Virus record (IMG/VR): IMGVR_UViG_3300011115_000708
Span: 17,029-81,028 of that record
Length of the DNA: 64,000 nucleotides
Reading direction: 5' to 3' (one strand)
Origin: a virus
The notes beneath the pieces were generated by a model. That model had not been told where the DNA came from. It saw only the letters and a program-made list of their open reading frames with translations, and ran no database searches. A program made the translations under genes and the position numbers. This document shows, one piece after another, positions 23,267 to 26,730 of the stretch. Numbering within the stretch: the stretch's first letter is position 1; every line of letters starts with the position of its first letter.

Positions 23267-23518
23267 ATGGAAATTGAACTACAAATCTGGAAATCAAAAG
23301 CAGAAGGTTATTTGCAAGACTACCTCGATGCTCTGAAGCGCATGGATAAGATCTCAGCCGATCGCGACCTCTGGAAAGCTGAAGCGACTCGCTGGCGCGA
23401 TATGTATCTCCAGTACGACGAAATGCTGGAGGGACAAGTGCAAGAATCAGTGAACAAGATCAACAAGATCTGGGAAGATCTCAATGAGCTCAAAAAGAAA
23501 GTCGAGGACGAACTGTGA
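23267..23518 (+). CDS. coiled-coil phage protein, 83 aa (phage B)
   Basis: The start is placed at the ATG at 23267 (MEIELQIWKSKAEGYLQDYL). It is helical with heptads throughout. It is a diverged counterpart of 58779-59093 (shared pattern WKS-[KR]-AE and Y-L-Q then LKR). The stop overlaps the next start by 4 nt. Function unknown. Confidence 0.55.
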   Translation: MEIELQIWKSKAEGYLQDYLDALKRMDKISADRDLWKAEATRWRDMYLQYDEMLEGQVQESVNKINKIWEDLNELKKKVEDEL

Positions 23519-24096
23519 GAATAAACCCAATACACGCGCAGCGTGACCTAGATAAAGTCAAGATGCAGTGGTGTAGGACTTGCAAGACTGATAAGCCTAC
23601 ATCGGCATTCTATAAGTGCCATCGCACCAAGTGCATGGACTGCAAGCGTGAGGAGAAACGACTGAAGCTACGCAACACAGTCAAAGACTTCTGTCACTCA
23701 TGCAGCACATGGAAACCAGAGACATCGTTCGGAGTAAATACCCGAGGTGATGAGCGACTGAAGACCTGCAAGTCATGCACAAAGGCAAAGGATGATCGGA
23801 TGCCAGCAAGCATTAGAGAGATCCAGATTAAGCCACTGCCGGTCATCTCTAAGGAGAATCGATGGCATCTGCACCAAGGTACTGTGACGCTCTTCATCGT
23901 AGGCCCAGGAGAGTTCGCCATGCACAAGTGTTCCGAGCCAGTTTACCGAGGAAAAATTGGCACTCCCGAGGAGCGGGAGATTGCCAAGACCGCGATTGCC
24001 ATGCTCAATGCCGACATCCAGAATAATCTTGACGCTGGGCCGGAAGCAATTCAAGAAACACTCATCAAGGCGAAAGCCAAACATCAAACAAAATGA
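23515..24096 (+). CDS. double zinc-ribbon phage protein, 193 aa (phage B paralogue)
   Basis: The start is a GTG overlapping the previous stop; an ATG at 23563 is possible. Two cysteine clusters (WCRTC with CMDC, then FCHSC with CKSC) form tandem zinc ribbons like those near HNH-type nucleases, but no HNH catalytic residues are seen. The C-terminus (GTVTLFIVGPGEFAMHKCSE) is shared almost word for word with the phage A protein at 59277-59933. The stop overlaps the start at 24093 by 4 nt. The role is unknown; DNA or RNA binding is likely. Confidence 0.65.
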   Translation: MRINPIHAQRDLDKVKMQWCRTCKTDKPTSAFYKCHRTKCMDCKREEKRLKLRNTVKDFCHSCSTWKPETSFGVNTRGDERLKTCKSCTKAKDDRMPASIREIQIKPLPVISKENRWHLHQGTVTLFIVGPGEFAMHKCSEPVYRGKIGTPEEREIAKTAIAMLNADIQNNLDAGPEAIQETLIKAKAKHQTK

Positions 24097-25094
24097 CATG
24101 GATACTACCAAAGCAGTTACACACGTTAGCCTCTGTGCAGGGTACGGAGGCATTGATCTCGGACTCAACAGAGCAATCCCAAATTTACTCACAGTTGCTT
24201 TTAGTGAGATCGAAGCATTCGCCTGTGCAAACTTGGTCTCGAAAATGGAAGCGGGACTCATGGACTGCGCTCCTGTGTGGACGGATCTTAAAAACTTCCC
24301 ATACGAGCAATTTCACGGACGAGTGGACATCCTTTCTGGGGGTTACCCATGTCAGCCATTCTCAGCAGCAGGGAAGCGAGCGGGAGCAGACGACCCAAGA
24401 CACCTCTGGCCTTTTATCGCAGAAGGAATTCGACTTATGCGACCCAAGATGTGCTTCTTCGAGAATGTCGAAGGACACATTACGTTGGGACTCTCCAGCG
24501 TCATCAGCGACTTGGAAGAACTGGGTTACAAGGTGTCGTGGGGAGTATTCAGCGCGGCTGAATGCGGTGCGCCACACCAACGGAAGCGTGTCTTCATCTT
24601 GGCCTACTGCCAGCAGCAGGGATTGGAAGGATTCAGCGGGCATGGCAACCTCGTCAATCAACAAGGATGGATCGGACAGGAACCGGATCGATCAACTGCC
24701 AAGGGCAGTATTTCACGATCATGGGAGGTCGTTAGTTGGGCAGCCGACTGCAATGAGGATGACGAATGCTCAATCTGCGGACTTGAATACGCAGAAGAAT
24801 GCCAATGCTTTGGCCCAACGCAAGACGGCATTGAGTATGAAGAATTCGATGGGGTCTTGTATGGGCGACCAGAACAATTCTGGCCGAGCAGACCAACTCA
24901 GCCACAATTTCCAGGAGAACCACCAAGAGTCAATCAAGCTCAATCCACGTTGGGTAGAGACATTGATGGGACTTCCAGTAGGATGGACACTCCCGAGTTG
25001 TACACAACCTGTGACAATCGAACCGACGAGTTACGATTGCTTGGCAACGGAGTCGTGCCAGCAGTTACCGAGCGAGCATTTAGAACTCTTTTAA
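24093..25094 (+). CDS. 333-codon frame nested over the methyltransferase gene (possible overlapping gene)
   Basis: This frame spans the whole methyltransferase gene in the +1 frame without a stop. Its ATG overlaps the upstream stop as ATGA, the rule for real genes here, 5 nt before the methyltransferase ATG. It contains two stretches I recognise from phage proteins often labelled methyltransferase-associated: WPTASSRDWKDSAG (residues 170-183) and LNPRWVETLMGLPVGWT (283-299). The residue mix in other parts is shadow-like (many Ser, Gln, Thr). It is either a genuine overlapping gene or a widely conserved shadow; see findings. Confidence 0.35.
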   Translation: MTWILPKQLHTLASVQGTEALISDSTEQSQIYSQLLLVRSKHSPVQTWSRKWKRDSWTALLCGRILKTSHTSNFTDEWTSFLGVTHVSHSQQQGSEREQTTQDTSGLLSQKEFDLCDPRCASSRMSKDTLRWDSPASSATWKNWVTRCRGEYSARLNAVRHTNGSVSSSWPTASSRDWKDSAGMATSSINKDGSDRNRIDQLPRAVFHDHGRSLVGQPTAMRMTNAQSADLNTQKNANALAQRKTALSMKNSMGSCMGDQNNSGRADQLSHNFQENHQESIKLNPRWVETLMGLPVGWTLPSCTQPVTIEPTSYDCLATESCQQLPSEHLELF

Positions 25095-25114
25095 CTGAAC
25101 TACTCAATGACTGA
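24098..25114 (+). CDS. C5-cytosine DNA methyltransferase (Dcm family)
   Basis: The motifs appear in order: I (HVSLCAGYGGIDLGL, residues 9-23), IV with the catalytic Cys85 (GGYPCQPFSAAGKR), VI (FENVEG, 121-126), VIII (QRKRVF, 161-166), a variable target-recognition stretch, and X (LLGNGVVPAVTERAF near 315-329). The start is the ATG at 24098; a longer frame from 23957 would overlap the previous gene. It probably protects phage B DNA from host restriction. No partner restriction enzyme lies nearby, so it is an orphan enzyme. The target sequence cannot be read from the protein. Confidence 0.9.
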   Translation: MDTTKAVTHVSLCAGYGGIDLGLNRAIPNLLTVAFSEIEAFACANLVSKMEAGLMDCAPVWTDLKNFPYEQFHGRVDILSGGYPCQPFSAAGKRAGADDPRHLWPFIAEGIRLMRPKMCFFENVEGHITLGLSSVISDLEELGYKVSWGVFSAAECGAPHQRKRVFILAYCQQQGLEGFSGHGNLVNQQGWIGQEPDRSTAKGSISRSWEVVSWAADCNEDDECSICGLEYAEECQCFGPTQDGIEYEEFDGVLYGRPEQFWPSRPTQPQFPGEPPRVNQAQSTLGRDIDGTSSRMDTPELYTTCDNRTDELRLLGNGVVPAVTERAFRTLLTELLND

Positions 25115-25388
25115 ATCACAACTAGAAAAGAAGGTCTGTGCATGGGCCAAGGACTGTGGCATCTCGACGCTAAAGCTCTCTGGGCCAAATGACCGAGGAA
25201 AAGCAGACCGGATGTTCATGAAGCATGGTAAGATCATGTTCTTGGAGTTCAAAGCAGCAGGTAAGAAACCAACTGCACTTCAGCAACGATTCCTCAAGCA
25301 ACGCGTGGACGATGGGTTCGTCGCTGGATGGACTGACGACTATGTTGAGGCAATCGACATCCTCTGCAAATTCTTCCTGTATGAGTGA
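25107..25388 (+). CDS. VRR-NUC endonuclease
   Basis: The 93-residue single domain has the VRR-NUC pattern: an N-terminal helix (ESQLEKKVCAWAKD), GPNDRGKADRMF with the catalytic Asp, and the FLEFKAAGKKPTALQQ block carrying E-x-K and the downstream Gln. Stand-alone phage VRR-NUC proteins cut branched DNA and often precede an SNF2 helicase, exactly as here. It overlaps the methyltransferase stop and the helicase start by 8 nt each, so all three are probably translated together. Confidence 0.85.
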   Translation: MTESQLEKKVCAWAKDCGISTLKLSGPNDRGKADRMFMKHGKIMFLEFKAAGKKPTALQQRFLKQRVDDGFVAGWTDDYVEAIDILCKFFLYE

Positions 25389-26730
25389 AGATTTCAAACC
25401 ATTCCCATACCAACCTGCGATGGTCGATTGGTGTGTCGATAATTCATCCTCGGCATTGTTCGTATCTCCAGGCAAGGGCAAGACAGTCTGCACACTCGCG
25501 GCGATCGACCGATTGATGCGGTCTGGCGAAAGCCGAGGTGCGCTCATCATCGCCCCGCTGCGCGTCTGCTCGATTACTTGGCCAAACCAAGTCGAGCGTT
25601 GGAACCACTCAAAACGGTTCCGCGTTGCCCACCTGCGGACGAAAGAAGGGATGCAAGCATGGCAAGATGGGTCTGCTGATATCTACCTCATCAACTCCGA
25701 GCAACTGATCGCCAAAGCACCGATCCTGTTCAAGGGCAAGGTGCTGCCAGTAGACACTTTGGTCATCGACGAGTTAAGCCTCGCCAAGAACCCAACTAGC
25801 AAGCGGTTCAAGACGCTGCGGAAGTACCTGCCGATGTTCAAGCAGAGAATCGGGTTGACCGGCACTCCTGTGCCGAACAATTATCTCGACCTGTACGGAC
25901 AGATCCGTCTGCTCGATGACGGCAAGCGACTCGGAAAGTCATTTTCTGAGTACAAGAGTAAGTTCTTTTACCCTGCGGACTATATGGGCTATACCTTCAA
26001 ACTTAGCCCAGGAGCGAAGGAGGAGATCGATGCGCTCCTCAGCGACCTCTGCTTGGTCATCATTGGCGACGAGAGCGACCTTCCAGCATCCTCGGTGGTC
26101 GATGTGCCAGTAACCCTCCCAACAGACGCTAGGAAGGCGTACAGGACGCTTGAGAAGGAGTTGTTGATCGAGATCAAGGACAAGGAGGTTGTCGCCCTCA
26201 CAGCAGCAACCTTGTGCAACAAACTGCTCCAGATCACCGGAGGCGCGGTCTACGACGACGAGAAATCGGTCGTGCCTATCCACACTGCCAAGATCGAGGT
26301 ACTGCGGAAGATCCGCAAGCAGCACAAGGACGAGCCGATCCTCGTCTTGACTGCGTTCAAGCATGAGTCTGCTCGGATCTTGGCTGAGATCGAAGGAGCC
26401 GAGATGTTCGATGAACGCCGGTTGCAGGACTGGCAGGATGGCAAGATCAAGACATGGGTGGCAGACCCTCGTAGTTTGTCACATGGGATCGATGGACTCC
26501 AGAAGTCCGGAAGGATAGCAGTCTGGTTTACGCTGACGTACTCCAACGAGACGTACATCCAGACCAATGCTCGATTGATCCGTACTGGTCAGTCTGCTGA
26601 GACGCTGATCTACCGGCTAACCGCGACCAACACGATCGACGATGCAGTAGCCGAGGCACTGCGGGAGAAGACCAACACGCAGAGCGGTCTGATGAGTGCG
26701 CTCAAGGCACTCCAGACGATGCAGGGATAA
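25381..26730 (+). CDS. SNF2-type SF2 DNA helicase/translocase
   Basis: The start is the ATG at 25381 (MSEDFKPFPYQPAMVDW); an in-frame extension from 25225 would cover the nuclease gene. Motifs: Q-like PYQ at the start, Walker A SPGKGKT near residue 30, a DEL[SL]-type motif II (VIDELSLAKNP) near 123, LTGTPVPN (III) near 159, and an [NQ]-x-R-x-x-R-TGQ motif VI near 397. Together with VRR-NUC it forms the common phage pair for branch processing or fork restart. It is the last rightward gene before the convergent terminator. Confidence 0.85.
   Translation: MSEDFKPFPYQPAMVDWCVDNSSSALFVSPGKGKTVCTLAAIDRLMRSGESRGALIIAPLRVCSITWPNQVERWNHSKRFRVAHLRTKEGMQAWQDGSADIYLINSEQLIAKAPILFKGKVLPVDTLVIDELSLAKNPTSKRFKTLRKYLPMFKQRIGLTGTPVPNNYLDLYGQIRLLDDGKRLGKSFSEYKSKFFYPADYMGYTFKLSPGAKEEIDALLSDLCLVIIGDESDLPASSVVDVPVTLPTDARKAYRTLEKELLIEIKDKEVVALTAATLCNKLLQITGGAVYDDEKSVVPIHTAKIEVLRKIRKQHKDEPILVLTAFKHESARILAEIEGAEMFDERRLQDWQDGKIKTWVADPRSLSHGIDGLQKSGRIAVWFTLTYSNETYIQTNARLIRTGQSAETLIYRLTATNTIDDAVAEALREKTNTQSGLMSALKALQTMQG

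Follow-up and report, generated by a model that had tools for sequence, protein, structure and literature searches.

The small subunit of the C5 cytosine methyltransferase (C5-MTase) M.EcoHK31I, which has YGGCCR specificity and needs both of its chains to methylate, is encoded in an alternate frame that overlaps the gene for the large one, and M.EaeI is also a two-polypeptide C5-MTase. The motifs are distributed between the chains in different ways: in M.EcoHK31I, the large subunit carries motifs I–VIII and X together with a predicted target-recognition domain (TRD), and the small subunit carries motif IX (PMC3404938, citing Lee, Kam and Shaw 1995); in M.AquI, the second chain carries motifs IX and X (PMC3404938). 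In phages, an out-of-frame gene within a methylase gene has been described in the case of the ShiLan domain, but this hidden gene encodes an HNH endonuclease, is a homing insertion, and forms no part of the methylase (PMC11855218). No description of a nested gene in phage C5-MTases was found in the literature searched (open-access text only).

The locus considered here lies in a window (the whole stretch of viral DNA analysed) of 64,000 nucleotides from IMG/VR record IMGVR_UViG_3300011115_000708. A C5-MTase gene, ORF A, shares nearly all of its DNA with a second open frame, ORF B. The ATG of A sits 5 nt 3' of the ATG of B (ATGACATG), which itself overlaps the TGA (24094-24096) of an upstream ORF (23515-24096) in an ATGA, and the stop of A ends at 25114, 20 nt past the end of B. 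An earlier note on this DNA had described the +1 frame as open across the gene from this ATGA overlap, and had quoted two motifs from it; the coordinates agree, and both motifs are where it had placed them, WPTASSRDWKD at B codons 170-180 and LNPRWVETLMGLPVGWT at B codons 283-299, the DNA of the latter giving LGRDIDGTSSRMD in the A frame. The features are as follows:

24093..25094, plus strand: ORF B (beta), nested +1-frame gene of 333 codons (333 aa) with an ATG start; PHROG_1008-like; carries an inferred target-recognition cassette and a putative motif IX
24093..24100, plus strand: paired start codons ATGACATG, with the ATG of B at 24093 and that of A at 24098
24093..24323, plus strand: N-terminal region of B, codons 1-77, constrained in both frames, with a conserved WILPKQLHT...RSK...KWKRDSWT
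24098..25114, plus strand: ORF A (alpha), C5 cytosine methyltransferase with motifs I–VIII and X, without motif IX
24338..24364, plus strand: motif IV of A, GGYPCQPFS, with the catalytic cysteine
24566..24595, plus strand: motif VIII of A, GAPHQRKRVF
24600..24938, plus strand: cassette of B, running from WPTASSRDWKD as far as motif IX and inferred to recognize the target; a linker in the A frame
24641..25039, plus strand: A residues 182-314, the linker between motifs VIII and X, predicted to be mostly disordered
24746..24811, plus strand: Cys-rich stretch in the A frame, DCNEDDECSICGLEYAEECQCF, seen in the sequence
24881..24931, plus strand: conserved WPSRPxxxQxxxEPPRV in the A frame, where B is weakly conserved
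24939..24989, plus strand: LNPRWVETLMGLPVGWT, read as motif IX of B, of which LGRDIDGTSSRMD in the A frame is the shadow
25031..25060, plus strand: motif X of A, LRLLGNGVVP

This arrangement resembles that of M.EcoHK31I in that the large chain has motifs I–VIII and X without motif IX, which is in a second chain from an overlapping alternate frame. It differs in three respects: B covers the whole of A and begins upstream of it, from the paired start; the enzyme belongs to a phage, with no endonuclease identified; and, whereas the TRD is predicted in the large subunit of M.EcoHK31I (PMC3404938), the constraint seen between related loci and the predicted disorder of the A linker place recognition, by inference, in B. 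The former prediction counts against recognition in B, although it comes from published work as a prediction and does not define this type of enzyme. As in M.AquI, the split falls after motif VIII, and motifs IX and X are both in the second chain in loci L051, L081, L093, L094, L119, and Arthrobacter phage Andrew; in the window and most relatives, however, it is the large chain that keeps motif X. Andrew gp43 and gp44 (L089:2510-3659) are the two chains of such an M.AquI-like split, with motif X in B. Already annotated as a gene is gp56 of Paenibacillus phage Shelly ("g55 internal gene"), which is the same nested +1 gene but is given as a hypothetical protein, without a function or a link to motif IX, and which starts inside A rather than upstream. 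What appears to be new is that B covers all of A, that recognition apparently lies in B, and that the arrangement is common.

Whether B is a gene at all has to be settled first, since a tblastn match to an overlapping frame may arise as a by-product of the amino acids and codon usage of A, which is to say that B would be open and similar only as a conserved shadow. The strong conservation of motifs IV–VIII of A fits such an origin, and here constraint is mainly on A (omegaA 0.03-0.04) and that on B is at its weakest (omegaB 0.40-0.53). The number of stops to be expected was obtained by shuffling the synonymous codons of A within each gene. In the window (200 shuffles), the B frame has 0 stops against 6.6 expected (minimum 2 among the 200), and the third frame has 19 against 18.1, i.e., no depletion. 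In a test on 79 genes, the core of B has 12 stops against about 480 expected, and the third frame again matches expectation; all 12 stops fall in the distant phages epsilon15, RcAqua, and Shelly and in one odd locus, L052. A shadow of A would thus contain about 6 stops per gene, as the A-preserving shuffles do, where approximately none are observed.

An unbiased sample was drawn from IMG/VR by a search with the codons of motif IV, in which 111 viral C5-MTase genes were scored among the matches listed. The +1 frame is depleted in 98 of these (6 stops against 455 expected), which makes the nested design common among viral C5-MTases of this motif IV form. The other 13, again among the matches listed, show no depletion (111 stops against 109 expected) despite similar catalytic motifs, which is not what a shadow would give, and most of them have a canonical motif IX of the LTPRE or LSVRE type in A; in this sample, genes in which A possesses a canonical motif IX lack the nested frame.

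A separate ATG for B is also present in every one of the 80 related viral loci, at -2 (42 loci), -5 (32), or -8 nt (6) of the start of A; in the 42 loci with the ATG at -2, A starts with GTG, so the stronger codon belongs to B. Substitutions between related loci were then sorted by their effects in A and in B, with the limits that a transition weight was assumed, that multiple hits were uncorrected, and that recombination leaves the pairs not fully independent. In the N-terminal half of B, NN/NS is 0.26 (95% CI 0.19-0.34) and SN/SS is 0.37; in the C-terminal half, the values are 0.08 (0.06-0.12) and 0.30. By comparison, other genes of these loci, scored in their +1 frame, gave omegaB values of 0.71-1.28 and 1.15-1.17. 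Purifying selection acts on B as well as on A, and does not so act in the control genes. B (24093-25094) is therefore a genuine, well-supported overlapping gene with a conserved start. The earlier note had left the choice between a true overlapping pair and a shadow; stop depletion, the ATG in all 80 loci, and the substitution patterns decide for the pair, and two findings that the note thought would refute it, stops in the +1 frame of close relatives and no constraint on B beyond that imposed by A, did not materialize: there are no such stops, and omegaB is low compared to control genes. The conserved shadow can be set aside with near certainty.

Searches with B against phage genomes by tblastn gave matches in 56 records, and all those opened, which include C75C1, epsilon15, RcAqua, Shelly, R23.9, Spikelee, N15 (where gp58 carries this frame), and Klebsiella phage 2, fall within C5-MTase genes, in their +1 frame. 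To the 80 IMG/VR loci found with A as query, queries with B added 86 more, nearly all of them fully nested; in bacterial genomes, 77 of 80 matches of B are nested, and the other 3 overlap partly. Stand-alone, non-nested B genes were sought among the relatives, and none were found. Two candidates, Tunturiibacter phage Tunturi_1 gp50 and Cylindrospermopsis phage Cr-LKS3 gp58, were rejected since a full A lies in frame -1. Both gp50 (L090:2216-3187) and gp58 (L091:2021-2758) are annotated as methyltransferase but correspond to B, the catalytic chain being unannotated.

Pfam PF00145 matches A (2.1e-37) over residues 9-177 only. B has no family in Pfam and no accepted one in NCBIfam, but over residues 70-299, it matches PHROG_1008, "DNA methyltransferase" (6.8e-16), which the Shelly relative of B matches at 5e-74. 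The name would fit the catalytic chain, but the family to which B and its relatives belong is that of the nested beta frame. The suspicion in the earlier note of a database family that is a conserved shadow is thus half borne out: what PHROG_1008 represents is indeed the nested frame and not the catalytic chain, yet its members are real proteins and the family is no artefact. Searches with B revealed no detectable homology to solved structures and nothing credible in Pfam or PADLOC.

As regards the motifs, A holds I–VIII and X, with no motif IX in its frame, and in this it differs from a canonical single chain, which has motif IX in the frame of motifs I–VIII. B holds LNPRWVETLMGLP, equivalent to the canonical motif IX LTPRECARLMGFP. 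In the canonical C5-MTases of the same sample, RRLTPRECARLMGFP stands 28-32 residues (aa) ahead of motif X; B reads KLNPRWVETLMGLP, at a median distance from the motif X of A of 31 codons in the family of the window and of 21 in the wider sample. Moreover, Papez and L256, relatives with a single chain, have the B-type motif in frame, directly ahead of motif X. On the basis of this resemblance, the near-canonical spacing, and these single chains, LNPRWVETLMGLP is read as motif IX; this reading has no significant profile match behind it, and a phmmer search with the C-terminus of Papez, aimed at confirming it, gave no credible match. Plasmids were also searched for a typed relative of M.EcoHK31I or M.EaeI, which yielded only more C5-MTase genes, none so named.

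The position of motif X varies: it is in B and not in A in nine loci (L051, L081, L093, L094, L119, L265, L272, L284, and Andrew), which means that the A/B pair together retains the full motif set, and the pair behaves as if only joint possession of this set were needed. In another locus, L120 (2314-3210), the A-frame chain ends in a B-type motif IX without motif X, which may reflect either genuine variation or an indel introduced in assembly. Some of the nine loci bear on a second explanation, in which a programmed +1 frameshift near motif VIII joins the catalytic half of A to the cassette and motif IX of B, the start of B being unused. One such shift would give a complete chain of motifs I–X in L051, L081, L093, L094, L119, and Andrew, and single chains do exist in Papez and L256. 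In most loci, however, motif X is in A, and two opposite shifts would be required; furthermore, the ATG of B and its first 77 codons, which are upstream of such a shift, are conserved and constrained (omegaB 0.18/0.34 for codons 1-77 compared to about 1 in control genes). Programmed frameshifting as the sole route is disfavoured on these grounds and seems very improbable.

The locus constitutes a system in which it is possible to tell, for each segment, which of the two frames the constraint belongs to. Codons 1-77 are constrained in both, motifs IV–VIII mainly in A, and the segment from motif X to the end of the gene in A. Between motifs VIII and IX, the rates at A positions 1, 2, and 3 (0.121, 0.022, and 0.044) have the pattern of a B-frame reading. 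At motif IX, B is invariant (omegaB 0.00/0.05) and A is free (omegaA NS/SS 1.34, few sites); the LGR-x-x-DG-x-x-x-R pattern, which the earlier note took for the usual pre-motif-X pattern of the enzyme frame, is thus the shadow of LNPRWVETLMGLP in B. A nevertheless has 0 stops in the VIII–IX segment against 374 expected (73 loci): A is selected to remain open across the cassette, needing read-through to reach motif X. The linker is not wholly passive, since A keeps the EPPRV stretch conserved within it. Stretches of the form QEQYxWEPxR near motif X in Shelly and C75C1 are related to the WPSRPxxxQxxxEPPRV of A. Among L006-L085, the first 169 codons are near-identical in many loci, and sequences exchange wholesale after about nt 507 of gene A. 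Such an exchange of the cassette that follows motif VIII is what specificity swapping would be expected to produce.

In the AlphaFold2 (AF2) model of A, two parts are confident, the catalytic fold at residues 1-181 and the helix of motif X at 315-338, with a pLDDT below 50 at residues 182-260 and 278-314 and a low-confidence break in the disorder around EPPRV. Foldseek aligns this model with M.HhaI over about 180 columns; no recognition domain is present in the AF2 model of A. B modelled alone is poor (pLDDT 55.7, pTM 0.25), too poor for a fold search; this would be expected if B folds on A, but a poor model is not evidence that it does. Since B possesses an N-terminal region of its own and could be assigned neither a fold nor a domain, it might be a phage protein unrelated to the enzyme in function, such as a regulator or a counter-defence protein, that shares DNA with the enzyme without being a subunit of it. 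This is unlikely: B has the motif IX missing from A, at about the right distance from the motif X of A, and can carry motif X too; the nested frame is missing, among the matches listed, when A has a canonical motif IX; and A is left without a predicted recognition domain.

The partition of the motifs, the selection on B, and the absence of a recognition domain from A make it most likely, with high confidence, that the enzyme is a C5-MTase naturally split into two polypeptides as M.EcoHK31I is, an explanation in which the translation of B, its association with A, joint methylation, and recognition by B are inferred. A would be the catalytic subunit, with motifs I–VIII and X, and B, from its own ATG in the +1 frame, would be a second subunit that contributes motif IX together with the cassette for target recognition. 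Ribosomes may start in either frame at the adjacent start codons, producing both chains from one mRNA; A and B would fold together, with B providing the small (recognition) domain absent from A, and A would traverse the cassette as a disordered linker up to motif X. That the cassette is the target-recognition region is inferred from its evolution in the B frame and its swapping between relatives, without activity data.

A wider proposal, somewhat favoured but less secure, is that a large class of phage C5-MTases is ordinarily built by nested coding in two frames, in which B holds the whole target-recognition domain, the A linker is largely dictated by B, and one cassette swap replaces both specificity and linker, the origin being a single-chain ancestor, a frameshift, and subunit complementation. 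A split enzyme would account for both the puzzling hidden ORF and the mis-named family by an enzyme architecture that can be tested, with two chains obtained from about 1 kb by a long, strongly supported, same-strand overlapping phage gene pair. By implication, many database entries for phage "DNA methyltransferases" are one subunit only, sometimes the non-catalytic one, so that an annotated ORF cloned alone and recoded would yield an inactive enzyme.

Two minor observations concern the locus and its surroundings. The Cys-rich stretch DCNEDDECSICGLEYAEECQCF in the A linker is zinc-ribbon-like, with similar stretches in L051, L081, and L178, in some of which it is located where motif X switches frame. 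On the 3' side of the locus, the window at 25107-26730 contains a 93-codon ORF that is VRR-nuclease-like by eye, without a Pfam match, and an SNF2-type helicase (PF00176).
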